Positions 3,512-42,320 of a DNA stretch of 64,000 nt are shown here, piece by piece. The notes beneath the pieces were generated by a model. That model did not search any database and was not told the origin of the DNA. It saw nothing but the letters and a program-made list of their open reading frames with translations. The position numbers and the translations under genes are program-made. The DNA comes from Branchiostoma floridae (taxonomy: Eukaryota > Chordata > Leptocardii > Amphioxiformes > Branchiostomatidae). The DNA is taken from contig NC_049983.1 in assembly GCF_000003815.2 (NCBI RefSeq), forward strand, positions 10,669,482 through 10,733,481, written 5' to 3'. Each line of letters opens with the position of its first letter. Positions within the stretch are counted from its first letter, which is position 1.

Positions 3512-5945
3512 CTCTAAATGTTCCTCCGTATATTTCCAGGGAGGAGCGACCATGCAGTTTGTATGTGGCAAGATAACTGTCTTAATTTTTTTTCTTGGTT
3601 CATGTTCTTGTGCTTGATGGTTTCCAGTTGTATTTGTACCTGTTGCAAATGCATTTCTTCTTGTTGATGTTCTTGTTGCAGGTTTTACTTGTTGATGTGT
3701 TTCGTTTTCTAGGTAATTTGGAGTTATCAACAGTTCCTGAGAGTGAGTATACTTTAGAGGAGCAATGAAATCACTAACAAGTCTAAACACAAACATAAAC
3801 AGTGCAACAGTAGGTATTCCAGTGAAGAGCTTGCATTTTGCATCTGTGAGATTGGAGGCTGATGTTGATGATTTCTTGATTTGTTCTTGAAGGTGATCAC
3901 GTTCTTCCCTAAGGTTGTCAGCTTCACTTTGAAGGGACTCGCAAAACTGTTCCAACTTACATTTCTCCTCTTGTACTTTTGTGAGCTGTTCTCTCAGAGT
4001 CTCTACACTTTCAGGAAGGGGGTCTCTCAGAGTCTCTACACTTTCAGGAGGAGGGTCAGCGATCATTTCTTCATCTGAAATAAAGCAAATCCGAAGTTCA
4101 ATGAAAGTGCTATGTGATTATGAGTGTCATATATCTGAACTGAACTGAATGTTCTAAACTCTGATTCATATGTATGTATTGTTGTTTCAATATTTTACTC
4201 ATGCAGGTTGCATGCTTCTCTACTTGATTCACATCTATATCCCCACTCCGAAAACCAAGCGGATAAACTTTGTAGCAAGTAGTCTTGTGTGTATGGTATG
4301 TGATTCATGTTGAATAAGTGACAAGTGATAGATTTACTTGTTGAGCAAGAATGATAGATTAAACTGTTGATCAAGAATTTATATGTTTAGGATTACTGAT
4401 TGTATCCATTAGACACTTTTCTTATTCCCTCTGTAATGCCCTTACCATTTAGTGATGTAGGTGGGGCTTCATTCTCTGATGACACCCGTAGCCTTTTTGC
4501 TGCACGCATATACCTGCAAACAATGAAGCATGTTGTAAGTTGTAAATCAAAGTTGCATGCTTTGTTTCCTACATACATTCTGTTAGCATAGCATTTAGTG
4601 ATTACTGCTGTGAATGTTATGAAATATAAAACATTTGACTAGGTGTAAACTCTAACATGAGTAACTTACAGGATCTTTGTGAGATTTAACTGAATCCTTG
4701 GTAAAACTTTCATGGTCATCTTCTCAGGCAAGGAGGTAGAGTATAGCAATGTTTCACACAGGCATGAACAGCCTGCCTGCATGAACAGCATGAGCAGTAA
4801 ATCAAATTTCAATAAAGAAACATTGAAAACCCCAATGTTACCTACCGATCTTTCTTGGCAACTGGGTTTCTTGAACGATTGCAACTTGCTGAGGTTGGGA
4901 GGTTAAACAAGCTTGGGACGTAATCTGGATCTGCAGGGTCTTTAGAAGGGTTCCCTGCAATGCAAGAAGCAAAGAACTTGTCAGTATTATAAACATGATT
5001 TTAAAATGAGGTGGCAATTGGTCTTGTGGTTAGGGTGTAGGACTCATAATCCAAAGATAAGTATGAGTTGGAATCCCTGATAGGTCACTTTGTTGTAGTG
5101 CCCTTGGGAAAGGTACTTAAACCATACTTTACACCTATTTCCTCACTTCACTAAGGTGAAAAATGAGTACCTGGCTTCGGCTACACACCTCGGCATGTTA
5201 AACTGAAAGAACCCACCACACTTATCGAAAAGAGCAAGGGATCACCCCGGTGTGAGTGGATCAAACTCCACAGTCTGGTTCTTTCTTTCCCCTGCACTAT
5301 CCCACAATGGTCCGGACCAAGGTGGAGGTCTACCCGCTGGGGGCCTCCCCACACAATATGCTCCAGTAGGGGCCATCTGGGGGTATTCCCATGTAGATGT
5401 AGATGATTTTAAAGACATTTTAAAACATTTGTAGATGTCTTCGTCAATCAGTTAAGTGATGTACGTTATACTTCTGGTATACTATATATGTATACGTCCA
5501 TCCCAGATACTTTACCACTATTTATAAGTCAGACCCCCCCCTCCCACGTGGACGCGCTGTAAAACTTTGATACATGTAACATTAATATTCACTATCCTTG
5601 ATATGGCATGAATCAGCGACAAAACTTACTTAAGCTTTCCGCAGATGTGTAACGAAAAGTACACTATTACATCACGAAAAATGTATTTATGCAAGGGGGA
5701 CAACAACAAAATATAAAACATATAGATCACAAACCTGAGATGAAATGGTCGCTGCACACTCTCTCGTGGCCTCGTGGTGTCCACGCCGCGGTCGGGTTTT
5801 TCTTTCCCTGCTCAAAATCTGACCTTTTTAAGGCTCTAAGCCATGCAGCCCTTCGTCCTGGTTCCGCAGGGATTCTAAAAAACTTCTTTCTACTGCCTTT
5901 ATCCTTCCGGTTAGTACAATTCAGCGCACAACAACTGGTCGGCAT
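3512..5945 (-). pseudogene. THAP-domain transposase gene lacking its catalytic part
   Basis: Four exons on the minus strand join in phase: 5735-5945, 4846-4954, 4446-4513 and 3512-4074, giving 317 codons. Residues 1-70 form a THAP C2CH zinc finger (MPTSCCALNC at the start, CSDHF at the end), a sequence-specific DNA-binding domain. A typical linker follows (NPSKDPADPDYVPSLF). Then come an imperfect 11-residue tandem repeat (PESVETLR twice) and a coiled coil of about 60 residues. The transposon segment KCKLFTGIPTVALF follows. A splice donor ends exon 4, but no exon with DDE catalytic residues is present further left. If the donor is ignored, the frame stops at 3410. It faces the YqaJ fragment, as expected for two truncated genes of one deleted element. 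Domestication as a stand-alone THAP protein cannot be excluded. Confidence 0.8.
5010..5300 (+). mobile_element. tRNA-derived SINE
   Basis: The head carries tRNA-like internal promoter boxes, TGGTTAGGGTGTAGGAC (A-box region) and GAGTTGGAATCCC (B-box region). The tail, with CCCTTGGGAAAGG, CTCACTTCACT and CCACACTTATCGAAAA, is shared with the copy at 53035-53320. It sits between exons 1 and 2 of the THAP gene. Confidence 0.75.
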
Positions 5946-5966
5946 GTTTGCGTTTCCCGCGCGCAA

Positions 5967-6009
5967 CTGGTGGGCGAGGAGGGTTCAGCCCGCCCTCCTC
6001 GCCCACCAG
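5967..6009. other. perfect 17-bp hairpin inside the right transposon end
   Basis: CTGGTGGGCGAGGAGGG at 5967-5983 is the exact reverse complement of 5993-6009, with a 9-base GC-rich loop. It lies between the THAP start codon (5945) and the right terminal repeat (6012-6026). It could be a subterminal transposase-binding structure or part of the transposase promoter. Confidence 0.9.
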
Positions 6010-15786: not shown

Positions 15787-15886
15787 NNNNNNNNNNNNNN
15801 NNNNNNNNNNNNNNNNNNNNNNNNNNNNNNNNNNNNNNNNNNNNNNNNNNNNNNNNNNNNNNNNNNNNNNNNNNNNNNNNNNNNNN
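15787..15886. other. assembly gap (100 N)
   Basis: A run of exactly 100 N marking a scaffold gap of unknown size. Confidence 0.99.
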
Positions 15887-16601: not shown

Positions 16602-16735
16602 AATGTATACAAGCAAGTACGCCGTCCCAGAGACGCCAAGAATAGCCGGGTTGACTGTTGCAGGCTTTTCTTTCTTACGGTCGCTATGGCTAGGTACATT
16701 AAGTGATTCCTGAATTCATTGATTGTCTAACCGAA

Positions 16736-17115
16736 CCTGTCCTTGGTGCTAAACACCATCCACACAGATGAACACACTTGTCCCTGACGCTGACCAACAT
16801 ACGCCCATAAGCGAGCATACTTGCCCTTGGTGCTGAAAACCATCCACACACTCAGATAAACAAACTTGTCCCTGGCGCTGACCACCATACACCCATAACC
16901 GAACATTCCCGTCCTTGGTGCTGAACACCATCCACACACTCAGATAAACAAACTTGTCCCTGGCGCTGACCACCATACACCCACAAGCGAGCATACCTCT
17001 CCTTGGTGCTGAACACCATCCACACAGATAAACATAGTTGTTACTGGCGCTGACCACCATACACCCATAAGCGAGCATACCCGTCCTTGGTGCTGAACAC
17101 CCACACAAGAAAGCA
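16736..17115. repeat. minisatellite, period 84-88 bp, about 4.5 units
   Basis: CCTTGGTGCT recurs at 16741, 16825, 16913, 17001 and 17085, giving spacings of 84, 88, 88 and 84. Each unit includes ACCATCCACACA, CTTGTCCCTG and GCGAGCATAC. The open frames it creates on the minus strand change with unit length, which argues against coding. Confidence 0.9.
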
Positions 17116-18416: not shown

Positions 18417-18422
18417 TTTATT
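18417..18422 (-). terminator. polyadenylation signal AATAAA for the secreted receptor gene
   Basis: AATAAA on the minus strand, 128 bases after the stop codon at 18550-18552. It supports 18550 as a genuine 3' end rather than a truncated model. Confidence 0.6.
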
Positions 18423-18549: not shown

Positions 18550-18714
18550 CTATTCTTCAATTTCGTTACTACGCGAGAGCCTGCCCTCGCTGCGGTTATG
18601 TTTACGTCTGCGCCTCCTGTCCTGGCGGTTCTTCCTGCGGCGCGAGCTCGAGCGGCGTGGGACACGCAGCATCAGCAGATCACTCCGCTGGGCGTCGTCA
18701 TAGGGTGCCGATAC
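18550..18714 (-). other. terminal exon encoding a polybasic tail
   Basis: Phase-0 exon of 55 codons including stop. The first 18 residues align with the 58-base exon 15 of the paralogue (VSAPYDDAQR versus VSPPYPDAAR; LRVP versus FQIP). The paralogue has a GTGAGA donor immediately after that point. Here the sequence reads CCACGCCGC, so no donor exists and translation continues into PRRSSSRRRKN and QDRRRRRKHNRS before TAG. The tail therefore looks like retained, repurposed intronic or novel sequence. Confidence 0.85.
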
Positions 18715-21700
18715 CTGCACGTACAGTCAAGACTGTTAGAGTGCCAGGTTTGAGAAAAAAACTGCTCAGCTGGATGGACATGCAATAGTGCTATTCTTTG
18801 AGAAGCTTCAAAATGAAATTACGGTTATGAACATTTCATCTGTTTTTGGAGTGTCTGTGTGCATGTGGCGAAACGGCTAGTGCGTTGGAATCAGAATCGG
18901 TAGGTCCTGAGTTCGGTACTCACCATGCCCATGCCCATGCCCCCCATGACGGTGGAGTGACGCCCATCGAGCCTCACGGCCAATCTGTCTAAAGGTGCCT
19001 AAACCACCTACGCATTTGCCCACTTACCACTAAGACCCTTGATTTTCTTTTTAAATCTATTTTTGGAAGACAGTGTTCTTGGATTTTTCCCAATATCTAG
19101 GAATGAGGTGATTGTACCGCCTAAAAGTTTTAAACGATATATCCATGTAGAATCCATCTATCATGTAGATCAATTCGGACATAACAGAAAAACTAGTACG
19201 AAAACTTTGTATTCATACAAAAGTATAACACCATACCTGAAAGAACTGTATCCCTCCCGGCATATCCTTCAGCACGGCCGTCACGTTGGTCCAGTTCTCT
19301 GCCTCCGGCTGTTACCAAAAAAATGAACCCAACAGTAAGAATGTGTACTCTCAAATGTTGAATCAAATACTCATTTGTGTAGCACGAACAAGAAGGGATT
19401 TCGTGTATTTTATTCTACAGACGAAGCTATAAAATATGTCAATGATATTTGTTATCAGACTGCAGAACACTTCTCCACAAGTTCCGAAGAGAACTCCCAT
19501 TCCGTCTACTCATCCCGAATAGCACAAACATAAGGAGAGAGATACTACGATGAGGAATTAGAGGGGCAGGGTAAGGCTTGGAATAATTAGGGAATGAGGG
19601 GAGGTTCACTAAAGCTGCTGTTCTGTGACAGGAGATGAAATTTACCCGAGGAACTGTCTGGCGCTCCAGACTTGACGGGTCCTTCCCGTGGTACAGGTAA
19701 AACCCGCTGTAGTCGTACTTCTGGTGAGGCTCCGGCCGGGGGAACGTCAGGCGTACGCGCGTCTCTTGCTTCTTGCGGCCGCCTTTGCTCTTCTTACCGC
19801 GTGGCCTGCTGGCTCGGCCCCTAGAGCGTCCTCCAGAGTGACCCTTGGAGTGGCCACCGCCGGAACGGTCACGACCCGCTCTCACGTTCACAGACTTGAC
19901 TTTGACATTTATATCCTGTTTCCTCGGCACCCAGTCTAGAGATAGAACAAACAAAAAAACGGTAGGGGTAAAAGTTACATTCTTGTTGCAGTGATTTTGT
20001 TACTTTCACAAGTTTCCCCCTTTCAAACCCCCTTACTAACAGTAAGATGATGCTTAGTGACATTACTATTAGACTTTTTTTCTCCAACTGTAAAAGCGAA
20101 AATTTTCGATATTTTTTTGGCCTTCGTGGTTGTTTGTGTTGAAGTGTACAGATACTTGATTCGAGCAATGAGATTGAAATTGCTTGACGTTCTTCATGAA
20201 TTCATTAATTCTATGTAGCATATCGAAACTAACCTGTTACTTCGATTATCATTTCCTTCACAGGAAATGCGTCTGGAAAAGGGGAGGATACCTGCAAGAC
20301 AAAACCAAGAAATTATGTCATGTGTCATCATCGTTGAAAAAGGAATATCGATTAGATACAAACGCAGGAATCAAGTGCAAGAAACATTCAAAGACATATG
20401 TACATGGTTACTATGATGGTTAAGAATCACATGTATGCGCCTACCTTCACAGCATATATGTCTGGCTTTAGGTTCGCGAACACAACGGAGACATTTTTCT
20501 CCAAGATGACCTATAAGATGTTCACAAAATAATGTTCATTGACATTTTCGTACATTTAAAATAAGAGAGATTTGAGAAATAGCGATATCATCAGCAGATA
20601 ACAAGATCGTTTTGCTACAAACTCTCTTAACGTTATATATCTCGATCTATTAAACAAATTATATCATTCCAAACAAATACGCATGTAACATTTGTCGACG
20701 ATGAAAGGCAGTAAGCCCAGACCTTTTATGATGAGAAACAACCATTTGTAAGTTTGTTGCTTACATTCCGTGTCCATGTGCACTCAGGATAGGACTTCCT
20801 GGTGAGAATGACGGTGCAGGCAGACAGGTTGTACTCCGGTGGTGGGCCTTCAAACTCAACCGTCACGTTACGACAGGATTGTTGGACATTAATGTCACCA
20901 GGTATCCAGTCTGGGGAAAAATGAAAGGTTGTACTATGAAGTTCATCATTTGTGATATTGTTTGGCCAGAAGACGTTGTACATTTTCCCGAGACAGTTAG
21001 TTGTGGTGGAATGCATGAATCTTCCTCATGATAGTGCAATGTGCAATGGAAGAAGTTTAATACTGTTAACATCACGTATGTAACGGTACATATCTTACCT
21101 GTGACAGTAAACTGCAACGGGTAACTCCTGAATGGATCTCTAGCATCCACGCTGTACTGTAGGAATAAAACCAGGGATACATAAATATCACATTTCCTCA
21201 ACAACATAAACTCAAGTTTTCCGGTTAGCTAAAGAAATCACATCTCACTTTCCACAAACTCACATCTTACTTTATTAGTAAGTGGGCAAGTGGTTAGAAG
21301 TAGAATTGATAGATCAATATCCAAAAATGTCCATTTTACAGCGGTTTCTTCAATACATATCTGCATCTGGTCACAACTAGTTTGAAATATTGACAAAGTA
21401 TGCCTCCCAGATCACATGACAAAAATTCCGTCTCATCTACGTAAATCTCACCTGTAAGGTGTACTGTCCAGGTGCGATGTTATTGAAGGTGTGTTGGAAG
21501 TACTTCTTATTGCTGTCTTTAAGGGACTAGGAAAAAGGGAGTAGAGCAAATGTTTCAAGATTGCCTCGGGAATACACTTGTTGTATTGCATACAAAAGTA
21601 GTACTTCATGGAGTGTTGGCCAAATAAAGCACGTCTAGCTCACAATTTTATCGTCAAGACTTAAATACGTTTTTTTAAACTCTTAATACAATCAGTATTT

Positions 21701-24700
21701 GCAAAATCATGCCCGTTGGCTAATTGCATGAACATTCTCAAGAGAAAAGTAAATGGGTACTTAACACTAATGTAATATTTAATCAACTGTTATGTGCATC
21801 TAATATGTCTAATATTGGTTTAGGCAGTGGTTAATGAACTATCTCACTGCAAAATTGATGGGTTTTGTGATTTAAGTAAAAACGTAGTCTTTTGGTGATA
21901 TCCAGGATTACAAAAGCTCGATGACATTGACGTGACTGTTTGGAATAATCTGTTTTAGCAATTAAGTGTCAATGGTATCTATTTCATATGAAGTGTGGTT
22001 GGTAATCTTACCAGGTTTTTCCGCGTCATGCTGATGATTTTCGGGTATGGCCTGCTCCCACTCGGTTGTCCCAGGTACAGGTTGTACGTGCGGATGTTGA
22101 ACTGTCGGGCAGTCCTGGCCCTGACAGTGACGGTCCTGCCGACGGACCGTACTGTTGGCTGGGGCGGGTTCCATCGGGACGGACTGGGCCTCGTCTTACA
22201 CCCCGGGATGTTCTCACAAGCTGGAACATTGCAAGGAAGTTGCCAACTTCACAGAGCAGCCAAAGATATGTCAACGATAGTCGACATCAACACTGTATTT
22301 CAATAATGAAAAGGAATGTACATGTTTTCTGGTTCTAGCGGAACACGGAATGGACTTTCAGGTCACAAGTACGAGCTCTGCATACAAAACGCTTGTGTAT
22401 GAACAGTGAGAACAACTTCGAAGATAAAAAGAAGGCTTCTGAAATTTGTTTAAGCATGGATATACATATACATGTTGTTTGTCTGAGAACAAGGGAAAGT
22501 TTGAGTCCTACATAATTTTATCTGCTGAATTATCTCTTTGTCACATGTAATGGCAACCAACTGCAGTGCACAGTGTACCAGCCAATCTTGCCTTGAAGAA
22601 GAGGACAGACGGCCATCGAAACGTCGGCTTTTGAAAACCATGTGACTTACGTCTTTGTCACATCAGTTAATAATGACACCTAACTGCAGTACAAAGTGAA
22701 CCAGCCATTTATGCCCTGAAGAAGATAACAATGTTTGTGAATAAAGAACTTTGATGTGCTGACTTACATCTTGTCCTGTACCTCTGGATGAGCACACTGT
22801 CCTCATCCCCATCATCAGGCCTGCGTGCCGGGAGGGACCGGACCGTGATGCCGTACCTGGTATCCGGGCGGAGACCCCGTACCACGTGATTGAACCTCTT
22901 CTGTGGGACAAGTCCATACGTCAACTGTAAGGCTTATATCAGTACCACATACAGGCAGCACAAATTACAAAGCTGCATCAAGAGATCATTTTCTAAGTTG
23001 AACTTGAAAACCAAAGGAACAACAAACTGTAGGCTGAAAATCACAGGTATATCTGAAATGTAGTGTTGCTATTCTCTAATATTAGGACGTTACCAGTACC
23101 AGTGTCAATGATTCTATGTTAACCTTAGTGCGGGTGCTATCCTGGTCCATAATTTCCCTTCTTTCCAACATTTGGTATATGGGGGAAGGGCAATACGAGA
23201 GCTCCAGTAAAATACCTAGGATGGCAACAGGCTTACTTTTACAATCCATGACCAAGTTTATTGATTTGATTTATGGTCAAATTTGATTACAACGCATGAG
23301 GCACATGACAGCAATGTGATACCCAAACACGAGTCCGGATGGGTGGATCATATTTGCAGAAGGCGCCGGTGTGCTGACTCACGGTAGAACAGCTACTTAC
23401 ATGTACTCATTAAGACAACAACAAATGTTTGTGTTTCCTACGTGCACAGTTAAGCGCAATACGAATTAGAGGAAGTTCGAAGCAGAACTTAAGGAACTCA
23501 GTAAAAGCCAATACACACAATGATACGCCCTAAGGAGATTCCTGTTTTCTGTTTTTCTTTGTTGAATCTATTCACGGACTTGTTGCTATGTGTTTTGCTC
23601 CTGTTATGGATCTTTTATGTCAAAGGCTACAGTGGTTATAAGCCTCTTTGGTTGATGGGTGTTTTTGTTTGTTCAACTAACGACAACGTTTTACTACAGC
23701 AGGTGAATCATTGTGCCTGTCACAGATAAGCTGTTATTGTGCTTCAGGTAGAATTGACAAACATAACATTGCAAACATTCTTGACCCTTTGATATTTAGT
23801 CTTTCTTGTCACACAAATCGTAATGTGTGATTCTCTGTTGATAAAGATCGGGCGTCAAAGCAACGCATGGACCCCATTACATTGTACAGACCACTACATG
23901 CAAATGTTTATCACTGCACAACACGTCAGAACAAGACAGTTTTACACGACAGGAGTCTAATCTGTTGGTTTCGCCTATACTTCTACCGCTTAAAACTGAG
24001 TTTATTAACGGGTGCCTAAGATTTTTTTTAGCGGATGAAAGCGTCTTCTGCCCCGTCAAAACTCCAGTCAATCCAAGGTAGACTGGATTTTCAGGTTAAT
24101 TATGAATAGTCGTTATATAAATGTATTGTTTAGACATATATATGATTATATTTGACGAACAATTTTTGTGGGTTCATCATTTGTCCGATATATCTGTCCA
24201 TTCATTTGTATGTAGCCGGATCACACAGAAACAAAGGTTATGTCAAAGCAGGTGTAAAATTTATGATTATACATACCAAAAGGTATGCCACAAGTAATTT
24301 GAAAATTAAAAGAAAAACCCCTCACCTGATTATCTTCATGTGCCAAAGTAACATTAAAGCCCAGGATGATCTGATGACAGATGGATGAAGATGCCGGACT
24401 CATCTCGGCCACGAGTACTGTGAACCCTTTCAGACATCTGATGGCTAAAGAGGACAGTGGCACAAGATAACAAAAAACCATGTCACTGGATAAATTCTAT
24501 GAAGAACCAAACGTTTATCATAGCAGCCAATATATCTTTTATCAGATCGTTTACGAAAAGACAGTGGGTGCTATCTGAAACTTCTTACTATCAAGAGAAA
24601 TTTTGCAAATGCTTGAATAATTTTGTATTGCGTAGTGTCTAATTGACGTATCGAGAATGACAAAAAGCTATCATTTGATGTACATCCAACTACAATGATC

Positions 24701-27351
24701 TTGTTATAAGCTTTATTGATTCCACTATTCAGCGATATTATTTTCAAAACTGTTGATCAGTACGTACAGATCAATGGCTGAATTGTCTACAAAATATGCA
24801 AGACAGGCTTTTAATTACCTGATTAGTCATTAAACCAAAGGGACTATCATCTATATTTCTCTTAGACTCACTTATAAAACTGTCCCATCACAGATTGCAA
24901 ATTCCGGTACGTACCGTCTCCACTGGGTTGCCAGCTGATGTTGACTGCATCCTGTCTGTTACTGTTACTGTCTACCGGCGTTACATTCAGATTACGCGGT
25001 CCGGGCACAGACTCGTACACGGGGAGCATGTCAAATGGCCATGCCGTGCATTCTGGAAAATTCCATTAACATGGTGTATCAAGCCAAACACGGCAAAACA
25101 TGTTTGTTGTGTGTTGGTTCGAATAAAGTTGCTAAACGGGGAACATGCGGCTCCAGCGTCTTTTCTGAAGATGTGGCGTAAGTGTGAACGGTTGGGTTGA
25201 GGTTGTCCTTCTCCTCATACTCTACGTAAAACTAATATGAAAAGGACAACAGGCAAATAGACGTACCACCAGTTTTATTTCAAAATTGTAATATTTCTAA
25301 CAAAGAAGCCTTGGATTTCATCATTGCCTTTGCCAAGAAGGTTCTGTTTTCGGTTGAGCCATGGTGAAGTGCCTGTGGTGTGTGTGTACTGTATGCATGT
25401 TGACAGCATAACACGACATGCTATGGATGGATCTGCATGCTATTTTATTGTACAAAAGCGAAGTTTAAAGCTTGAATGTTTTCCCACCTCCTGATGATGG
25501 ATATCTCAGACAGACCTCCGTACAGTTCCCAGACGTCCCCAGACCACATATTCTATCTGAAGCAGGCTGAAGAACATCAACAGAGGTTAGTTCTTTAAAA
25601 TACATGGCCATCACAAGGGGTTTCAATAGAGGTCTCAACCTTACTCAGAAACAAGGGACACAGTTCGAATTTCGGGGTGCGAATTTCGGGGTATGAAGTG
25701 TATGGGGCTTTTATGAATACTCACTAAAGCTGAAATCATGTTGTGGTCATCACTTTGCAGGTGGCGCCAGCCATTTTGAAATCAATAGGTCAAAGGCATG
25801 GAAAATGCGATTATAATATAGCCGCTAAGTCTGTGTGAGTGGGTTCTTATGCCCCATGTGGTATGAAATCTGCGCATTCAAGAACATCGTCGACACTATT
25901 GACGAGGAATCAGTTCGTATTTCTAAGTGATTTAAATCAGGGCAAAGAGAGCCTTAAAGGTGACCCGCACACCTCTAGCAGCAGCTCAATTGCTCATGGT
26001 TTTCTTTCTCTCTCGCCTAACCTTACCGACTTCTATAACGGCGTGGCTTGTAAAGTAATGATCACAGACGCTTGGATTCTGGTGGACATTCAGCAAATGC
26101 TTCATACTTAACAACTTGCGATCCTTATGTCTTCGTAAGGCCGAGGACTTGTTTAACGTCCCTCGTAGTATAATAAATGTACGTTCAAAGTAAGAGTAAA
26201 ACTGGCGAAGGTTATGTGATTTTAAAAGCTTATCATGTTGCATGTTAATTTCAAAGACTGGCACAAATATTTGTAGTTCTTGGTCATATTAACAGACAGG
26301 TGGTTTACACCTGTTTTGCCTCCCTCAAAGTAAATCCGAGCATTAATATGACTGACGACTGAGCAAGGCTGCATTCTTGGGGGACCAAAAAGGCATTTAC
26401 CAACACAGATGAACTTCTATACAAAGAAGACATTGTGCAGTAAATCAGCAGCATGAAACCAGCTACACATGTACTTTCAAATCCGCTGTATGAAACTAGT
26501 CATACTTTCTTATCCACCGTGTGAAACCAGTGATACTTTCAAATCCACAGCCATTATCTTGAAAGGCTTTAGGAGTGGAGTTTGAACACAATCCGTTAAT
26601 CATGGAAGCCGTTGTTGGGAAAAATAGTGATCTTTCATGAGTGACTGACATTAGACTAGTGCTCCACAATATTGACCACAATGTCTTTATATGATTTTTT
26701 TGGTGACTGTTTTGCTATGGGTAACATGGTACCTTCTGCAAGTAGCAGCTGGTATATGCAGCTGCAGCAAGACGCAGTAGCGGCTGCGTGCATAGGTCCA
26801 ATCTTCATACGTGCGTTTTAGTTCAGAGACACGGAAATATCCTTATAGATACGGCTTAGCATCCGTTGAAAATCCTAATTTGGGATTTCGTTGGGATCCA
26901 AACATTCCGGATCGCTGAAAATCTAAATTTCGAGTATTCTACGGATTCAAGTTGGATCCGTCTGTATCGATCCGCCTGTATCTGGTTGAAATATCTCGTA
27001 TTTTGCTGTATTTTTTAAATTTTCGCGCAAAGGTTGTATTTCTAAATAGGCCTTTGTTCATCCATTTGAACTATGTCGTATCAAGCATTTCCGTTATCGT
27101 CACGAAGGACCAGTTCCAAGTATTTCAGACTTCCTTCTCAGAATGCTTCAGCTGCCAAGGGAAGTGAGACTATCAGTTCTCAAAGGAGTAGTTCAAAAAT
27201 AAAAAGGCCGGAGGAATTGATAGTTGCGTTTCCTCACGAAGTGCTACTGCAGCTGATATAAACTCACCTGGGAACAGAGCGCCTGACAGAATTCTTGCCG
27301 GGATTCCCGAGCCTGTGCCGGGGCGAGAAGGAGCAACAGCAGGGCCAACAT
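18550..27351 (-). CDS. IL-17-receptor-like secreted protein with basic tail
   Basis: Fourteen exons join in phase (1692 nt, 563 aa): 27268-27351, 25488-25566, 24915-25052, 24326-24444, 22768-22900, 22012-22220, 21452-21526, 21099-21156, 20765-20910, 20445-20510, 20234-20291, 19646-19935, 19237-19308, 18550-18714. Residues 1-14 are a signal peptide (MLALLLLLLAPAQA). The rest is an ectodomain of fibronectin-like modules, each made of three exons and starting with DWIP or DWVP in the later modules. It matches the ectodomain of the receptor at 31239-42320 exon by exon. Exon 12 carries a Gly/Arg/Lys-rich insertion at about residues 409-446. The last exon starts like the paralogue's (VSAPYDDAQR), then runs into an arginine-rich tail (about 528-558) and a stop. 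No transmembrane helix or SEFIR domain follows. Inferred role: soluble IL-17-family decoy or carrier held by heparan sulfate. Confidence 0.85.
18862..19045 (+). mobile_element. tRNA-derived SINE (partial)
   Basis: GCGAAACGGCTAGTGCGTTGG and TCCTGAGTTCGGTACTC resemble tRNA A- and B-box regions. A CCATGCC triplet and a degenerate tail follow. It lies in the last intron of the secreted receptor gene. Confidence 0.6.
22555..22762 (+). repeat. two tandem copies of an interspersed-element end
   Basis: AACTGCAGTGCACAGTG...CCAGCCA...CCTTGAAGAAGA (22559-22605) and AACTGCAGTACAAAGTG...CCAGCCA...CCCTGAAGAAGA (22682-22725) are the same sequence about 122 bases apart. The ATCGAAACGTCGGC phrase is typical of metazoan retroelement 3' ends. 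It lies in the intron before exon 6 of the secreted receptor gene. Confidence 0.55.
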
Positions 27352-31238: not shown

Positions 31239-34200
31239 TCAAAACCTAGTTTCTCTGTAAGACTGCCCGCTGTCCTTCTCCATATACCTTAACTGTGAAT
31301 CTCTGTTTAACTGAGACAACTGGTCCATAATGTTAAAGTTACTGGAGGGAGGAGGTAACTTTGGTAATCCCCCGTTCAGAGGAGGAGACTCGGCCCGGGG
31401 TAAACCCGAAGGTGGCCCGGGCGGAGGACATTGTAAGTACGGTCGGGAGGGGGAAGACACCGTGGCGTGGGAAGGGGAAGTTTCTACCATTGGGCCTACT
31501 TGAAGGGATGGATACTGACCGGCTGTATGATGTCCCCCTTCTGTAAAATGTAATCTTCCGTTCGCTCTGTTAGCATCTGACGTGTCTGTCTCGTGACGCA
31601 CTGACTGTTCTTCACTTGGGAGAGGACGTCTCTGGGAATAGGACGCATGGCCTGCATACGGGAAGTGTCGGAATGGATACGGAGGGAAATTTGGGGAAAC
31701 TACTTCCACTTTATTCTGGGAAGAGTGATACCCAGTGTCGTGAGCCGAGAACGCAGGTACTTGGTCTGTATTATCAAACGAAAGGCTCTGTTCTTGGGGG
31801 ACCTGGTCTGGTGTTTTAAAACTCGTTTGGACACAACCTTCTATATGTTGAAAATGATCAGCTCGATGCCCAGCAATAGTTCTATAGTCGTCAACTTCAA
31901 AATCCCCCAGATTGCCCATCCCAATATGGGTAGAATTCATTTCTACTGCATGGTGTGCATGAGCATATGTGCGATTCGTCGGAACGTCAGCTATAGACCC
32001 ACCCTCTCCTATAACGGCTACCCCGGTTGAACCTTCAGTGCCATGCACTGGAAGGGAACTGACATTAGCTGAGCAGGCATCGGCATTGTACATACAGGCA
32101 GTTGGTGAAAGTTGGCCATATCTATCGTCAAGGTAATTGTTAAACTGGGATATTTCATCTAGATTGACTGAATCCAGAGACGCACTCTGAGTATCCCCTT
32201 CTATCGCATACTCCCCCTCCATTAAAGACTCTAAGCTTGAACCACGTGGTAGCTGGTCAGGGGTGTTTGGGACACTAAGGCCCATCCCATCACCACCCTC
32301 GGGACTACCCAGGACGGCAGCGTTACGTGAGAGGGCGGCCTGGAGGTTGCGTTTGCATGCCATCACGTCGTTTCCCTGCTCCCCGATTCTGATCGTCAGA
32401 GACTCGGGGTTGAGTTGATATCTGTAGAGGGGAGAGAAATAAATTCATCTTCTGTCCTTTCCGTGAACAAAACATTAGCAACATCAAGCATGGAATATGC
32501 GGAATGTAAATAGATGAAGAGAGCTATCAGGATGATGACTGAACAAAAAACCATCAAGTCAATAAAACACTCATAAATTGAAAATAACCAACTAATTGGT
32601 CTTGCAGTCAATCATCGAAATAGAAAGGATCTGTCTACACGTATTTGGTGTCGTGTTGGCGCAGTGGTTAGATTGTTTGGTCCCGAATCCAGAGGTCCTG
32701 GGTTCGAGTCATCTGACGTGCCACCGATACTGTGCCATTGGAAAATGCACTTTATACGACTTTTCTCACTCCACCCAGGTGCAAAAATGGGACCCTGTCT
32801 TTGGTTGTGCAGCTAAAAGGTGCTGGAAGGAGAGGGATGGGCACCGCATTACAGTACCGTACCCTAGACACAATGGATAGCAACCCACTGCCCCCTATGG
32901 CCCCAGAAGGCCATACCTTTATTTTAACCTATCCATCAAACACATCTTACCTCTCAAACTTGTGAAAATGACAGAACAGGTCCACGACGGCATCGTCAAA
33001 GTCTGGGTCTCGCGCCTTGATCTTGTAGTGCCGAGCAGTGCCCAGGACCTGCGGGACGGTGTGTTTACCGCTGTACTCGAAGCGGACAGTCAGGCACTTG
33101 TGGTGTTGGGTGGCGAGGTCGGTGGAGAGCTTCTCTCCCAGGATGCGGACACAGTGTGTGTATATGGGGTCCGGCTGGGCTTCTTCGCCGTCACCTGATG
33201 AAAAAAAAACAGAATTGTAAGGAAGACGATTTTCAATTTTCCTTAAAGCATATTTGGTGTAAAATCTGTCTTTTAGTGAAAAATGAGATAGAGGGGTACT
33301 ATCTCATTTTTCACTCGCGATCGTACAGTACTAGTAGACTGTTAATGACATACCTATGCAGACATGATTTAGTACAACTTATACAATTATGACGTTTTCC
33401 ACCTAAACGTCCTTCATAACTTAGTAAATGTGATAAATAATCAGGTCTAAAAATCTAGGCACCAGAAAATAGTTCTGGTATTCAGTGATGCCCAGTGATA
33501 CGATTTCTATGATATTCAAACAGATAGTGCTGTGTCCATGTTCTTCAAAAGATGTCATATATTCACGAATCATACGCGTTGTCAAGTTGAGAATAATCTT
33601 AAACACATGCACACTGAATGTGCGAAAAGGAACGAAAAGGAACGTTTTCTTACCAGTGTTGTTGGGTGGACAGACGACCACCGTATAGTCGGCAGCTTCT
33701 ATCTTGTCTATGTACCACTGTGCCGCTCCCACAAGGTCCACCTCCCTCTGACTGGTCAGCTCCGTGATGACGTCACAGTACAGCCCCGTTTGCAGGAGCT
33801 TCGCAAAGTGGTGGACGGCTCCATTTGGACCCCCGTGAGAGGGGGGATTCTTTGTGGAGATCACCAAGACTTTTTTGGCTTCTGTATGCATAGTAATATG
33901 AGGGTAAGTCCGACAACAGTAAAGAAAAAAGAAGAAGAAAGTGAACTAAGTAGGTGTTGGGACTTGAAGTTGAAGTTGAAATTGAAATATGTCATTTCAG
34001 CCGGACGTTTCCAAAGAAGAAAACAACAGCGACCAAGATAGCCAAACCTCACACCTTTAATTTCGGGTACTCCGCTGGGCTTTCGACCTGGAATAAGCCC
34101 TTTAATGATGCCAGTAAATGATGCAGACTTCTTGTCGACCATCCTCTTTACGTACATGATGACGAGAATCAGGATAAGGCAGAATCCACCGACGATACCA

Positions 34201-37200
34201 CCGATCATGGGTAGGGGCCAGGTCTGTGGGCTGACAACCTTTCCTTTAACATGGGAAAAAAGAGAACTCGGATTGTTAGACGTACTAAAAAAAGTCAAAA
34301 CTTTTCAAAATGTATGATAGAAAATAACATATAAGAAATCGACAACTGAACACATAAAGCAAATTTCCAGGGAATTGCGTGTACCAGAATCTAAATTAAC
34401 GTTTGGTGAATTTCTCACCTGGTATCTGGAAATGTTTCAGTTTACTCCGGGCTGCATCAGGATAAGGAGGTGACACCTGGGAATACAAATAGTCTCCAGA
34501 TGACTAAAGATGTAAAAGCCTGTGCAGTGTATGCATGTTGATGTGTCTTTAGGGGCGTTACAACAATGTCTTTTCTCATTTTACAAAAAAAAAACGATGT
34601 CTAATGCTACGGTCCTTTTTAGTAGAAAAAAAGAGTCGGGCTGATTTTTAAGTACTTTCGGTCATGACGTGACGTGGCAGCGTAGCACACCCTGTAGCTT
34701 CCGGGCTACGAGTACTTAGTATTTTGGGGCACCGCGGGGTCCTTGTGTTTTCTTCATAACCTCACAGATAAAACCCGACAGCAAATAGATGCGTTTCCGC
34801 AGTATCTTACAGTCCATCGGGACAAATTTGTTTCGTCAGAGCCCGAACGGGACTATATCCCCTACAGGCATGGGTGGAAATGGGGCCGTAGTACTAATTA
34901 CTAAGCATGATGTAATTTGATCAAATTTATCACTCATACCTGGAAAAATAGGTCGCTGCTCTGGACGACATCCAACTGCACTGTGACGTTCTTTCTGTCG
35001 TCATCATGAGGCTGGAAAATGAAAATATAAGAGCCTAGATGAATTTTCAAAGAGTTAAAGTAAAAAGTTGTAAACGTCCGTGGAATGGTGAGTTGGGACA
35101 AACATCATCCACAGGAACATTTGACAGACTGGATATGTGAAGAGTGAAAGCAAGTATGAGGTTTCAATCATTAATGCTCTTCTACGTTGCTATGCAGTTA
35201 CCTGACAAATTTCCATGTACTGCAGTTTGTCAGTCTGAGGTCCATAGTACACGTAAAAGCTGGGATAGTCGTGGTCTGGTGGGGGTTTGGGGAAGAAGAC
35301 GGTCAAACGTGTGGAGTTCGCGGTCGGTCTCATGGAGTCCTGGACCAGCTCTATGTCTTCCTGATTCGGCACCCAATCTAATGGGCAAAAGTACACGGTA
35401 GGTGATTTAATTCCTAACATGTACTGAGAATGATGTGGGTAAACATTTTTTGTCCGTCATTATACATAAAATACGTACATAGCATGTCTTTTAAATTCTA
35501 CTGTTTGTTGACGAATCAAATCTTGTTTTCCTGTGTCCCGGTATAAAAAGGAGGGTACTTTACCTGTAATGCTGAAGTCTTTTTCTTTAAAAGGAAAGGC
35601 GTCTTCGAACGGTGCAGACACCTGTAAAAATGATTATAATATTTACTTACAAAGCTAAAAGACAATGTGAAACAGCCTGAAACATCAGCGATGAAGTCAC
35701 AAAGAAGGTATACGTAGTCGTAGAATATAACACAAACCTTAACACGGTACGTGTCTGGAGGAAGGTTCCAAAGGTGAACAGTTACAACCGTTTGGTTAGG
35801 GTCCTGGAATGAGAGAAACATACAGTCATTCTTTTAATCTTGATCAAGTTCACAGTTTCTAGTGTCTATCCCTTTTACATTTGCTTTATGTGTATCTTCA
35901 TTCAATGGCGCATCTTCACAATACTTACAAACTCATTGGATTTGAAATCCAGTTCGTCGTCATAGCGGAAAAGCCTGACGTAGCACTTCGAGATGTTGTA
36001 CTTCAGCGGTGGGGCGTCGAAGCGGACTGTTACGTTACGTCCGTTCGTCTGGGTGGTGACGTTGTTTGGCTTCCAATCTGAAGTGAAAAAAAAAATGTCT
36101 TACTGATGATCGACATTACCGAATACAATTTTGACGCTACCAGTAAGAATGACAAGATGACATATATTTCATTGTGACATTTAAGTCTCCTTGCCTAGAG
36201 AATATGAGTAATCAGGAGTTTATTACAATTTAACTAGACGACAAGATAACGTATATAAAAACTCAAAAGATGTTTTCAAAATATAGATTAGATAGATTTG
36301 TAGTTGGTAACTGGGAGACACCCGTGCAATCCTAGCAAGGGCTGCAACAGTCTGTCTGGAGCGACGTAAAATGGGGGTCCCGTGTTTGAGGAGGTGCCCC
36401 GAGCACGACAAAAGGGAAACGGTGGTAAACCATACTTCTAAATATTACCCTTCAACTGAACTGAATATTACCCTTCCACGAACTATAGAAAAGTTGTAAC
36501 GAACCGTCGAATTAGTAAAGGAAACGTCTTATTGGTACCACGAGATGGTGATGGTTTGCCTTACCTTGCACTGTAACATTTACTGGATATGATCGCCAGG
36601 GATCGTGCACAAACTTTAGTTTCAACGAAATGGCATACTGTGGATGAAAGACGAGGAGAAGTTAGCGGCATCTAACGTTGGTATAAATACTGTCTTCATG
36701 AAATTGGTAAGTCTGTTTGTACGATGAACTTCCTGAAAGGACTGGATTTCTCTAATTTATCGAAAGGTATAACCCTACATGCATGACAGAAAGTGTTGAA
36801 ATTTGTAGCTATGGACGAACCTGTAGTGTGTAGTTTCCTGGTGACAGGTCTGAGATCGTGTAGTTGAAGTATTCTTGATTACTCTCTTCAGGTGTCTGAA
36901 TGAAGAAAAATCTATCATTACAATAGTACTGTCATGTTGCAGGTACTCCAATCATTTCAATGTCTTATAACGGCTTGCCCAAGACAATCCCTCTAGGCCT
37001 TCTCAAATTATCGTGTCGCAGACAGACAGACAGACAGGCAGACGGGCACACAGGCACACAGGCACACAGGCACACAGGCACACAGGCACACAGGCACACA
37101 CACATACACACACACAGAAAAGATCAGATTGGACATCAAATATCTCTTTGTTGAAAACAATAGGAAAATGAAAAGTCCATTTGCTCACCAAGTTTATGTA

Positions 37201-40200
37201 GATAGTGTCTTCTACGGCTGGAGACTTTTGGTTCCCTTGTATCTTGCCTAAGTATAGGGCGTACTGGTTTATGCAGTTTATTCGTCCTCTTTGCGTGGTC
37301 TTTGTCTTTGCTCTGATGAAGATCTGACGGCCCACTGTTGTAACATTGAGTTTCTCAGGGCGCCATCTGTTGGCGTCGCTACAACCTGTCGTCACAGGAG
37401 ATAAACCAACGAGTTAGACCTTGCGTTTTTCTTATTCCTGAACAATATGGATCTATATCCATGACCAAATAAAATCTTAGGTGAAATGGAACAACTGATT
37501 TTCAATCAATCAATGAAGCCGTGAAAGAATCAGTCGTGTCGTACCTTTGTCTGCCCTGCCACGGCGCCTTTTGGGGTCTGAGAACAAGTGGGAAAAGAAG
37601 TAATTTTTTGAAAACGGCACGTGAAAGAGAACAATGTGTACATGTAGTATGGCTGCACCGAATTTCATTGTAAAATCGAAATATATATCTAAACAGCTAA
37701 ACAAATCAACAACTTATCGTGAACATACTTTGGGCCTTATAGTGATACGTTTGTTGTAGATAGTTGCCATTGTCCCTATCTTGGCTTTTCGGCAGAGACT
37801 GCACAATGACATCGTAGTCCTCCTGATATAGACCAGACACTTCTTCTTGAAAGATCAACTGTTCAAGCAAAGATCAGGATGCATTAGTTGACTTAAGGCA
37901 CCAAAAAGTACTCAATGGTAGTATGGACTATTTGTAATCACAAAATAAAACAAAACTGGCTCCTGCAGTATTAAAGAAAGCCACTACCCTACAGCACTTA
38001 CTCCCTGTTCCAAGTGTTCATCACAGTCATAGGATGTCCAGAACACGAGATATCAAAATTGGAAGTTCTGCTGCAGTGCCGTGACAAGACGCTAGGCCCC
38101 CCTCAATGTAATTATTTTGAGGTCTTGTTAAGACCTACCGACAAAATATATATCGACAATTCTCGAGTAATGCTTTCCATCCACATACATGATAATACAT
38201 ACACATACAATAAAACGCTACCAAAAACATAAACGTCTTGGCGAACGTAACAAAGCGCATGTATGTACCTCACTGTCTGTAGGCTGTAACCGCACGCCTT
38301 CTGGGATGATTATTTGACTACACGGCCTGTGTTCCTGCATGGACCTCAAGTTCAGTTGGATCTGAAATCCTCTCAGGAACTCAATACCCGAGGCTGACAG
38401 AAGAAAACAGACAAAAGTATTAGCAGATTGTCATTCAATTTTGGGTTGTAATTGTCTATCTATATGGCTTGTCCTTGTACAAATGGTAAGTAATGAACAG
38501 TACTTGCAGTTGGTAACAATTCGTTCAGACCCTTTTCGTCGCTTTCTTTTCTTTATCTGTCGCTGCTATCATGTTCTCACCGGTAGCGTTTGTCTTCCAT
38601 GTGATCCTGACGGTGTCTTTGTTCCATCCTTTGACCTGCAGCTCTACGGGGGCAGGAGGCACGTCGTCCCCAAACGACGACTCCAGGCAGTCATCTTAGA
38701 GATTAAAAAAAAAGTAGATAAAGAGTTATGGAATGCGGTAAATCTTCAGCCTGATCCATAGACTACGCTCGTTTGTTCGTTGATAACCTTTTAGTTTGTT
38801 TGTTTGTTTGTTTGTTTGTTCGAACCTTTATTTATTCATGAAAGCTCAAATCGGCCTACAGGCCGCTTTTCATTGAGGTCATGAGGGAAGAGGCAAGGGT
38901 CAGACAAAGTATATAACAGAGATAAAGTTACATCGTTTTGAGTCCTTATAGGTCCTATACGTCTATATACACCATTTACATTTACATACATACAGAATAC
39001 ATGATAAAAACTGCTACATTATTCAAGTCCGTTCATTTGGCCGTTCCCGTGACTTTAAGAGTCTCTTAAAGGAAGCCAGGGTTGGGGCTGTGCGTATGTC
39101 CGGTGGTAGACTGTTCCAGATGGTGGGTCCACGGTAGGCGATGGCTCTTCTTCTAGTGCCTAGTGGCAAATAGGGTAGCAAGTTTCTTTGCTGTTTCTGT
39201 AGTAGGGTATAGTTTTACGGAGAGGTGTTGCTACCTATTTTCCCCTGACGTGCTCGAAACACACCATCGAAGACATGTCTTCCGAAAAACGGTTACAGCC
39301 CCAACCGAGATGCCCTCTCCAGGATTCTCCCAGCTACTAACTAATTTCAACCAGAGGCTCAACTGTGAGGCTGCTTCCAGTTGAAGTACACAGATCTATT
39401 ATAGTGTTATCTACGATGTACACTGAAACCGTCTACTTTTAAATCTAAAAAAAGGATATCAAGAAACAAGATATATGCGTAAGGAAGAAAATATCTACCT
39501 TTTTTGATAGCCGCACACCCATTTATGCAGTTTACTACACTCCCGCGATCACTGGAACTCTGAAAAACACGTGGGAAATATTTAGTAGACCTTTTTATAG
39601 CATGTAGTGAAAGGTATTGTTATTAACGGGTTCATATTTGAACGATCCATTTTAATTCTCTGAGGCTGTATACCTCTCGTGAATCTGAATAAGATTCAAC
39701 GCCAGCCTAAATAAACAAAACGTTAACATGGTCAGCCATCGAGTCTGAATTATGCCATGTAAAGAGCCACTAGTCGGCGATGCGTAAGTCGGACTTTGTC
39801 CATTTCGTACACGGTCGTTGCCATTTCATACGGTCGTTGCCATATCCCTGACCGGTCGATACGATTTGTACGAGCGTTTCATGATATTTTGGAAGAAGCA
39901 ATATTGAAATACAAATGTACGACAATATCGTGAAAATTGATTAAAAAAAAATGTCTGTAAAAGAATGTGACTACCTCGGGTTTGACATTTCTGAACTATG
40001 TTCCCTAACCAACTACGTTGTGATAAACTTTCAAAATGTATGGTAACCAGGCGCACTATACATGCGTAAAACGGCGATGATCGTTTAAGAGACGGAAATT
40101 AGCGAAGACGATCACTGAGCAACTACACAGTGACCAAAGTTGGATTTGTGTGACCCAGGACATTATATCAAAGTATGAACAAAACATAAGAAAAACGTTC

Positions 40201-42320
40201 GTTTTGTATCAAAGTTATTGAGAAACTCGTCAAAACTTGGGTCGTAGAGAGGTCGCCACCTTCAGTGGAAAGGGGTGTAACGCAACTTCCTTACCAGAAT
40301 ACTCATATACGTTACCCTCTTATACATAGCAACAGCCACCCTTACTAAAAAGGCGGGTGACCATTAATAGCCTATTTACTTTACGTGACATTATATCCCG
40401 ATTTCTTCCCCATTTTCTTTAGTTGTTATTGAGGATAGGCTGGGAGGTCAACCTTAAATCAACAGTCACAATGGTGAACACACAACATAGGATAAACTAC
40501 AAAATGATACCGATTTTGTTCAAAGTATTTCGCGTCCTGTGTATCAAAATTTTGTCCGCACGATCCATATACGAAACTGTGTCTATGTGTAGAGTTTTCT
40601 TATGAAAACGAAAGCTGACATAAGACGTGCAAACAGGTGACATAAGACGTGCCACTACATTGTACATCGATTTTTAAACACTTCCATTTACCATAATGAC
40701 TAGAAATAGTAACAAGGCCAGAAATCGATCGTTTTCTGAGACACGTTCGTCCATACGGCCTTTTAAAGCTGTATTCTCGGAAATGCTTAATATCTTTGTT
40801 GTTTACATCATTTACAGTGTAGAAACCTTGCATGACCTTGCATGAGAAAGCAGGGGAACGTGGTCAACATACAGGCAGTTGAAAACATGTTGACTTGTCT
40901 CCGTATAACACAAAAAGTGTACGTCCCAGTGTTTATGTACTTTAGACAGAACAAATAGAAATACAACAAGGAGACAAATATCTATACAGCCACCAACATT
41001 ATACAAACAAACAAGCATAAAGGGCACTGGTGCAGAGTTCTGCTATTTTCTGTTGAAAATTGTTCCTTGTTCTGCTTTCACGTGGGAAAAGGCAAACAAC
41101 AGCTTTCTTATATCTGAAACCGACTTACCTGACATGTGTGTTTGAAGACGGAAATGCCTTGTCATGATACGGGCAAGTAGTCTCTACAAGACTCCCGCCT
41201 AGCCGACTAGAAATAGGGGACTTTGGCCAAGCTAGGAATAAAAGCCTAGTAGGAGTTAAATTGGCATAGGAGCGAGCGGCGGTGAGGAAATAAGTCCTCT
41301 GGCCGGCCGACTCCGCTAGCGTACTATAGACTCTATTTGTCCAATTTCTACTATTAGACCACCGATCCGCGGAACCTGGTAGAGGCTACGGGCAATGGCA
41401 ATGTAACAATGGTAGCACGGAGGTCGCTTGTTAGTGGGAAAATGACCAATACAATCGCTAGTCTATGAGGATTAATTAAGGAAGCCTATCGTTCAAACAT
41501 AAATCTTGTCGAGTTTTGTCAACTATACATCGTATTCATGGTATAACTAATGGTGAGAATGAATGAATGAATATTGTACGAAAGTACGTCATTCGCCAGA
41601 GGGGTCACCTGACAAGCTTAAGGTAAGACGAGATGTCCGACAGTGAAACTGTATAATGACCTATTTTCTATCATTCATTCAGTCCTATGGACACTACGAA
41701 CATAGCCTCAGAATATCCTCAGCAACTTGGTCGAGTTATTGATATTGTCGCAGGCGAAACAAAGATCAATCTTGTCCCCCTTAAAAATGTTACCTTTAGT
41801 TATTTCCAGCTAGAACTACCTTACTTCTGATAGCATTAAGGCTAGCATGTTTTTTCAACGTTCTGTGGCATATTGCCATAGCCAGGATTAGGAACATGTT
41901 TTACATGAATTAGAAGCTAACTATCACCTGCAGAAATAACGTACCCTTGTTCTAAATACCTATATATGTACCCACCGCCAATTCTTACAACCGACAACCC
42001 CAAATATGATACCAAAAAGGAACGCAAACTCCGTCAGACCCAAAAGTAATTCCATGACAGAACTGAACATATCATCATACAAACCAGGCACTCCTATACA
42101 GTATCAACTTCCCTAGCTGTCACCTGTGCTTGGACAAAGCATGGGGAACCGTAAAACACGCGGAAAGTTTCCCCAAGAAGTGAAAGTTCCTAATACTGTC
42201 AAAAATTTCCCCATGTTCTCGCATTCTTACCTGACTGCACGTCTTGCAGGACGGCCTGGCAGAGTTCTCAAGTCCTTCCACTCTAGCTAGAAGGAGCAGA
42301 AGTAAGACGAGAGGAGCCAT
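31239..42320 (-). CDS. interleukin-17 receptor with SEFIR domain
   Basis: Nineteen in-phase exons (3321 nt, 1106 aa): 42231-42320, 39499-39559, 38581-38694, 38269-38393, 37729-37858, 37545-37577, 37189-37385, 36821-36895, 36565-36637, 35929-36077, 35738-35803, 35564-35621, 35202-35377, 34940-35011, 34419-34476, 34055-34243, 33654-33881, 32951-33194, 31239-32421. Signal peptide MAPLVLLLLLLARVEG; ectodomain to about residue 504 in repeating three-exon fibronectin-like modules; transmembrane helix about 506-527 (IVGGFCLILILVIMYV); SEFIR domain about 558-713; low-complexity cytoplasmic tail 714-1106. SEFIR domains recruit Act1/TRAF adaptors in IL-17 signalling. It is longer than human IL17RD, owing to the ectodomain and tail. 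Subtype (RD-like or RA-like) is not settled from this reading. The start is the ATG heading the hydrophobic leader; an upstream in-frame ATG would bury it. Confidence 0.92.
32643..32920 (+). mobile_element. tRNA-derived SINE
   Basis: TTGGCGCAGTGGTTAGATTG and GGTCCTGGGTTCGAGTC are clear A-box and B-box regions. The tail contains GCACTTTATACGAC, TCTCACTCCACCCAGGTG and a CCCCCTATGGCCCCAGAAGG end. It lies in the last intron of the IL-17 receptor, antisense to it. Confidence 0.85.
32951..33881 (-). other. SEFIR domain exons 17-18 of the IL-17 receptor
   Basis: Exon 17 (33654-33881) begins EAKKVLVIST, the first beta strand of the fold, and contains TELTSQREV, AAQWYIDKI and ADYTVVVCPPNN, the conserved core of SEFIR domains. 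Exon 18 (32951-33194) continues with CVRILGEKLS, KCLTVRFEYSG, VPQVLGTARHYKI and DAVVDLFCHFHKFER. The phase-1 intron between them splits the domain. This is the clearest evidence that the gene is an IL-17 receptor. Confidence 0.93.
34055..34243 (-). other. transmembrane exon 16 of the IL-17 receptor
   Basis: Encodes WPLPMIGG, then a hydrophobic stretch of about 20 residues ending MYVKRM (positive-inside), and a juxtamembrane segment to EIK. The paralogous secreted gene has no counterpart in this window. Confidence 0.9.
37017..37118 (+). repeat. CAGA / GGCACACA microsatellite
   Basis: CAGACAGA changes into about seven copies of GGCACACA and then a CA run, inside intron 7 of the IL-17 receptor gene. 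Confidence 0.9.
37545..37577 (-). other. 33-nt phase-1/phase-1 microexon encoding KRRRGR
   Basis: This short exon 6 of the IL-17 receptor adds 11 residues (about PKRRRGRADKG), is symmetric in phase and could be skipped without a frameshift. The secreted paralogue lacks it and joins the flanking exons directly. The RRRGR core resembles a furin-type or heparin-binding patch. Confidence 0.7.
38789..39200 (-). mobile_element. CR1/L2-like non-LTR retrotransposon 3' end
   Basis: The minus strand encodes the conserved C-terminus of a CR1/L2-type polyprotein (LPLGTRRRAIAYRGP, TIWNSLPPDIR, FKRLLKS, then stop). A 3' UTR of about 200 bases follows and ends in CAAA repeats (GTTT on the plus strand, 38789-38820). 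It is 5'-truncated near 39200 and lies in the intron between exons 2 and 3 of the IL-17 receptor. Confidence 0.85.

Follow-up and report, generated by a model that had tools for sequence, protein, structure and literature searches.

An amphioxus IL-17 receptor paralog gene without transmembrane or SEFIR exons, and its candidate role as a locally anchored decoy

Two genes related to interleukin-17 (IL-17) receptors lie in tandem on the minus strand of a 64,000-nucleotide stretch of the Branchiostoma floridae genome (GCF_000003815.2, contig NC_049983.1, positions 10,669,482 to 10,733,481 of the forward strand; the whole stretch is referred to here as the window). Gene A encodes a full-length receptor. 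Gene B (27351 to 18550) is a real and conserved IL-17 receptor paralog gene that has neither a transmembrane nor a SEFIR part, and the loss of a splice donor explains where it ends. Its product is predicted to be secreted, and we give even credence to the reading that it acts as a locally anchored decoy or sink for IL-17. A dedicated SEFIR-less gene of this family is already known (IL17REL); new here are the conserved basic stretches of the gene B protein, the difference in evolutionary rate between B and A, and the conservation of gene B across the genus.

Gene B comprises 14 exons that encode 563 residues, from an ATG at 27351 to a TAG at 18552 to 18550 (Table 1). A first-pass annotation of this DNA had proposed 14 in-phase exons matching the ectodomain of the neighboring receptor, and this was borne out: the exon borders have AG acceptors and GT donors throughout, the joined frame is open to the TAG, and the exons agree in both order and phase with their ectodomain counterparts in gene A. 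The AATAAA that it had placed 128 bases after the stop codon is also present, beginning at 18422. The RefSeq model of gene B, LOC118416162 (P0004), is truncated: exons 1 to 6, and with them the signal-like start, are missing. Exons 7 to 14 are identical to this model from residue 8 onward, while its first seven residues (MILQILI) match 21710 to 21690, upstream of exon 7. The 563-residue protein of the 14-exon model aligns over its whole length with a relative that was annotated independently (93% identity), and likewise with three relatives' models.

In total, the protein collection gave five B-type proteins (three full length and two partial). The full-length proteins come from a floridae x japonicum hybrid (P0001), B. 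lanceolatum (P0002), and a floridae x belcheri hybrid (P0003), the parental origin of each hybrid protein being presumed from its divergence. All B-type relatives are gene predictions, and one 290-residue model, P0010 (Bbelb_108430), ends near the end of exon 6; because it breaks off early, it is uninformative on the end of the protein. The four B-type proteins that reach the end share a basic loop, a basic tail, and a homologous C terminus (NEIEE, NEIAK, or NQLEE), with loop and tail lengths varying among them. LOC118416162 and LOC118416163 (gene A) are numbered consecutively, as are the tags Bbelb_108430 and Bbelb_108440, and the A- and B-type proteins of each of the three remaining genomes fit one shared contig. 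The protein-search matches of genes A and B were from Branchiostoma only and included no vertebrate relative, although a word-based search would not exclude one. A pseudogene was ruled out by the open frame and by the full-length models in three other genomes (72 to 89% identity by BLASTP).

The 3' end of gene B was compared with the corresponding part of gene A. In gene A, the last ectodomain exon is followed by a strong donor, CAGGTGAGA, and then by the transmembrane exon, which starts 175 bases farther on, and the SEFIR exons. The homologous place in gene B reads CCCACGCCGC, without a GT; because this donor site is lost, exon 14 reads through for 35 codons into an Arg-rich tail and a stop. 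With a scoring matrix built from the 31 donors of the gene A and gene B models (minimum score, 3.8; median, 9.1), no GT between the lost donor and the stop scored above 0.9, and two stronger GTs (4.4 and 6.0) lie past the AATAAA as well as the stop. Profiles of the transmembrane, SEFIR, and cytoplasmic parts, built on five gene A models that represent four species, matched only gene A exons among the 3335 six-frame open reading frames of at least 12 residues in the window, the best others having E values of 0.12 (transmembrane), 4.6 (SEFIR), and 3.2 (cytoplasmic). No strongly hydrophobic stretch occurs beyond residue 28 in the B-type proteins of any of the four species, and P0001 and P0003 gave no SEFIR match. 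The window alone leaves room for an exon in an assembly gap (15787 to 15886). The end of gene B is nonetheless hardly an artifact of this gap, because the full-length models, all three of them from other Branchiostoma genomes, stop at the homologous position; given this shared end and profile matches confined to gene A, we rejected a SEFIR hidden there. Two further claims of the first-pass annotation thus stand, namely, that no transmembrane or SEFIR exon lies downstream and that gene B, given its exon structure, the lack of a transmembrane-like stretch in four species, and a conserved protein end, is a SEFIR-less tandem paralog without a membrane anchor.

The gene B protein contains an FN3-like ectodomain related to domains D1 and D2 of IL-17 receptors, and a profile search matched its D1 region to IL-17RA (E value of about 4e-5). 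In B-type proteins, IL17R_D_N and IL17R_fnIII_D1 score under their Pfam cutoffs. Structural modeling predicts four FN3-like domains. The structural match to IL-17RA covers D1 and D2 of B (soluble ectodomain structures 3jvf, 4hsa, and 5nan), and the structural matches are headed by FN3 arrays from matrix, adhesion, and other receptors. Both the transmembrane segment and the cytoplasmic SEFIR of signaling IL-17 receptors are missing, and an ectodomain encoded alone, in a gene of its own and without a SEFIR, is a feature that gene B shares with the IL17REL type. As the family is defined by the SEFIR, the simplest interpretation is that B lost it.

Identities were calculated over the 453 columns common to all eight ectodomains (A and B, four species). 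Within each species, the A and B ectodomains are 35 to 38% identical (37.7% in B. floridae), which indicates that B is an old paralog rather than a near copy. A and B also form separate clades with full support in both trees. Taken together, these two results place the duplication before the sampled Branchiostoma species, and a recent or assembly duplicate was ruled out on the same grounds. The ectodomain of B evolves about half as fast as that of A: identity to the B. floridae sequence was 92.9% for B versus 88.1% for A in japonicum, 83.7% versus 65.6% in lanceolatum, and 77.9% versus 58.1% in belcheri, and corrected distances in A exceeded those in B by factors of 1.7 to 2.4 across the six comparisons. 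Columns differing only in A outnumbered those differing only in B in every comparison (from 48 versus 26 to 149 versus 60; sign test, P of 0.014 for the closest pair and 4e-8 or less for the other five, the comparisons sharing branches and so not being independent). Between floridae and belcheri, the gap was widest in domain 1 (78.6% for B versus 50.9% for A) and smallest in domain 3 (73.9% versus 63.6%), with domains 2 (79.8% versus 56.7%) and 4 (80.6% versus 67.3%) also more conserved in B. The B ectodomain is about as conserved as the SEFIR of A (77.9% versus 76.3%).

Conserved basic clusters were found outside the folded domains of B, in two stretches that A lacks and that are probably disordered. 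In floridae, japonicum, lanceolatum, and belcheri, respectively, net charge was +16, +16, +10, and +16 in the loop region and +12, +11, +14, and +15 in the tail, compared with +9, +7, +7, and +3 in the remainder of B and -6, +8, -9, and -1 in the ectodomain of A. The maximum net charge per 20 residues was 10 to 13 in B versus 5 to 6 in A. The motif RRRRRK is invariant in all four species; tail length, counted from the last shared motif, ranges from 37 to 50 residues. These stretches may serve in matrix anchoring. Since consensus heparin motifs are few, we infer heparin binding from charge alone.

In the mechanism that we propose, an IL-17 receptor gene would have been duplicated in tandem before the sampled Branchiostoma species split, as the tree suggests. 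The donor after the last ectodomain exon was lost in B, as the DNA itself shows, so that this exon runs into a short tail and a stop, and the transmembrane and SEFIR exons are gone. Secretion would be expected because the protein has a putative signal-like start and no membrane anchor, and the product would be a soluble ectodomain of four FN3-like domains. The basic loop and the Arg-rich tail, kept in all four species, probably hold B on heparan sulfate or another acidic matrix near the producing cells. There, B would most likely bind IL-17 ligands without signaling and thereby buffer or block ligand for gene A and other receptors. A decoy role, which the first-pass annotation had raised as a candidate, is plausible.

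Several observations weigh against this mechanism. The start of B has a modest 19-residue hydropathy (0.57 to 1.11), below that of gene A (1.44 to 1.63) and below the internal maximum of B (1.18 to 1.37), even though leucines form its core. IL-17RA ranked only 49th among the best 50 structural matches (VIA list), and no IL-17 receptor was among the best 50 Foldseek matches. With only 35 to 38% identity between A and B, a shared ligand is not required. Cardin-Weintraub heparin motifs number just 1, 1, 2, and 0 in the four species, and the lanceolatum loop is shorter than the others (29 versus 50 to 55 residues). Finally, the greater constraint on the B ectodomain fits an agonist or carrier equally well and sets B apart from primate IL-17REL, for which positive selection has been reported.

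That constraint leads to an alternative that we consider unlikely but worth weighing, in which B is a secreted coreceptor, carrier, or presenter that hands matrix-bound IL-17 to membrane receptors (by trans-signaling or by gradient shaping) and so aids signaling. The higher conservation of B in all four domains, at about the level of the gene A SEFIR, would suit such a role, as would basic stretches able to localize ligand; against it, IL17REL, the one SEFIR-less member for which we found a function in the literature, is presented as an antagonist in the accessible part of PMC13105070. Slow evolution does not choose between decoy and carrier, yet it speaks against a fast arms-race decoy, and together with the basic stretches it suggests a housekeeping, tissue-local role. 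A place for B outside the IL-17 system altogether, as a matrix or adhesion protein or as a receptor for another ligand on a retained FN3-like scaffold, seems to us distinctly improbable. The low identity to A, the top structural matches, and the Pfam scores under the cutoffs agree with it, but FN3 matches are expected for any FN3 array, and both the profile match to IL-17RA and the tandem position beside a SEFIR receptor with equal exon phases run counter to it.

Two other explanations are, in our view, very improbable. One holds that the true gene B splices to transmembrane or SEFIR exons in the gap or elsewhere, making the present model an artifact or an alternative transcript. Its footing is the 100-N gap 2.7 kb downstream, a phase-1 GT at 18605 that is usable in principle (score, 0.9), and the fact that the relatives are all gene predictions, one of the five (P0010) breaking off early. 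However, the three full-length models end at the homologous place despite differing loop and tail lengths, the transmembrane exon of gene A lies so close to its last ectodomain exon, and the transmembrane and SEFIR profiles match nothing in the window besides gene A. The other makes the Arg-rich tail the active part, as a peptide released by furin-like cleavage with an antimicrobial or nuclear role, and the ectodomain merely its carrier; the invariance of RRRRRK would accord with this, but it is the ectodomain that is strongly conserved, while the tail varies in length.

Table 1. Features of gene B, gene A, and the adjoining DNA (window positions)
Feature	Positions	Strand	Remark
Gene B exon 1: start codon and putative signal peptide MLALLLLLLAPAQA, predicted cleavage before RES	27268..27351	-	Cleavage predicted by the -3/-1 rule; similar start in P0001 to P0003
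Gene B exon 2: Cys-rich N-terminal piece	25488..25566	-	In all three full-length relatives
Gene B exon 3: domain 1	24915..25052	-	
Gene B exon 4: domain 1	24326..24444	-	
Gene B exon 5: domain 1	22768..22900	-	
Gene B exon 6: domain 2	22012..22220	-	
Gene B exon 7: domain 2	21452..21526	-	Identity to LOC118416162 begins here
Gene B exon 8: domain 2	21099..21156	-	
Gene B exon 9: domain 3	20765..20910	-	Ig_ILCR1 below cutoff for the exon alone, above for orthologous proteins
Gene B exon 10: domain 3	20445..20510	-	
Gene B exon 11: domain 3	20234..20291	-	
Gene B exon 12: domain 4 with basic loop	19646..19935	-	
Basic loop of domain 4, absent from gene A (about residues 408 to 445)	19766..19879	-	Predicted local distance difference test (pLDDT) score <50 in the P0001 model
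Gene B exon 13: domain 4	19237..19308	-	
Gene B exon 14: last ectodomain piece, read-through tail, stop	18550..18714	-	
35-codon Arg-rich C-terminal tail, past the position of the gene A donor	18553..18657	-	
Gene B polyadenylation signal AATAAA	18417..18422	-	Starts 128 bases after the stop
100-N assembly gap	15787..15886	.	2.7 kb past the gene B stop
Gene A: full-length IL-17 receptor paralog, LOC118416163, 1106 residues, 19 exons	31239..42320	-	
Gene A transmembrane exon	34055..34243	-	No gene B counterpart found
Gene A SEFIR exon 1	33654..33881	-	
Gene A SEFIR exon 2	32951..33194	-	

The 19-exon model of gene A, including a micro-exon, translates letter for letter into the RefSeq protein, and its SEFIR scores above the Pfam cutoff. 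The micro-exon (33 bases, 37577 to 37545) encodes the basic peptide PKRRRGRADKG and has no equivalent in gene B. It is present in the floridae and japonicum-hybrid A proteins, diverged in lanceolatum, and absent from both belcheri A models, a pattern that reflects either alternative splicing or lineage loss. Upstream of gene A, open reading frames at 53911 to 45888 (minus strand) gave one weak NUDIX match (E value of 0.0067, below cutoff); we take them to resemble exons of mitochondrial ribosomal protein L46. Downstream of gene B, a mir-2060 precursor at 16897 to 16992 (minus strand; 61.8 bits, above the gathering score) was the sole match in the window to reach the Rfam threshold. It sits within a 4.3-copy, 88-base tandem repeat (16735 to 17101), about 1.6 kb past the gene B stop. 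Open reading frame matches revealed a diverged interspersed repeat common to 10.5 to 11.0 kb and 16.1 to 16.7 kb, also downstream of gene B, and a THAP-domain open reading frame at 5730 to 5984 (minus strand; E value of 2.2e-13) is possibly transposon derived.

Among the known systems close to gene B, gene A shares 14 ectodomain exons of equal phase and the same domain order. It differs in its transmembrane segment, SEFIR, long cytoplasmic tail, micro-exon, and faster ectodomain evolution, and in lacking the basic loop and tail. IL-17RA resembles B in the profile match to the D1 region and the structural match over D1 and D2, but has a transmembrane segment and a SEFIR. The ectodomain of IL-17RA consists of two FN3 modules. 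The mode of action proposed for gene B has a likeness in osteoprotegerin, a decoy tumor necrosis factor receptor with a heparin-binding domain, as described in the accessible part of PMC5922009. Both would be soluble decoys with a glycosaminoglycan-binding part; osteoprotegerin belongs to an unrelated receptor family, and the heparin binding of B is putative.

A precedent is vertebrate IL17REL, a dedicated gene that resembles the IL-17RE ectodomain and lacks a SEFIR (PMC10143491, accessible part). Li et al. (Nature Immunology, 2026) reported decoy activity of IL17REL toward IL-17A, F, and C, as cited in the accessible part of PMC13105070. That preprint, in the same part, also describes IL-17REL as under positive selection in primates and as pseudogenized or lost in rodents and lagomorphs. 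The first-pass annotation had thought a dedicated gene for a soluble receptor notable because vertebrates mostly produce such receptors by splicing or cleavage; this point is weakened, as IL17REL is such a gene (accessible parts of PMC10143491 and PMC13105070). Within the openly readable portion of the literature, a dedicated IL-17 decoy gene is described only for vertebrates (IL17REL, 2026), and gene B is not described in the accessible parts of PMC4517768, PMC8226699, PMC5457136, and PMC8353272; prior mention in subscription literature is possible. Because rodents and lagomorphs are reported to be without IL-17REL (PMC13105070, accessible part), a second system for the study of soluble IL-17 receptors would be useful.

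We tentatively suggest, with less than even confidence, that a soluble IL-17 receptor anchored to the matrix is conserved in cephalochordates and that it either arose independently or is an ancient counterpart of IL17REL. It would be more constrained than the adjoining membrane receptor, with the soluble arm, and not the signaling receptor, as the stable element of this IL-17 circuit. If so, amphioxus gene B would extend the buffering of IL-17 by a soluble receptor beyond vertebrates and raise the question of whether there was one ancient chordate gene or two inventions. Like gene B, IL17REL is a separate gene for an IL-17 receptor ectodomain without a SEFIR and a plausible ligand sponge. In contrast, gene B stands in tandem with a SEFIR receptor, has a predicted four FN3-like domains and two basic stretches, and evolves slowly, whereas IL17REL is reported to be under positive selection in primates and pseudogenized in rodents and lagomorphs.
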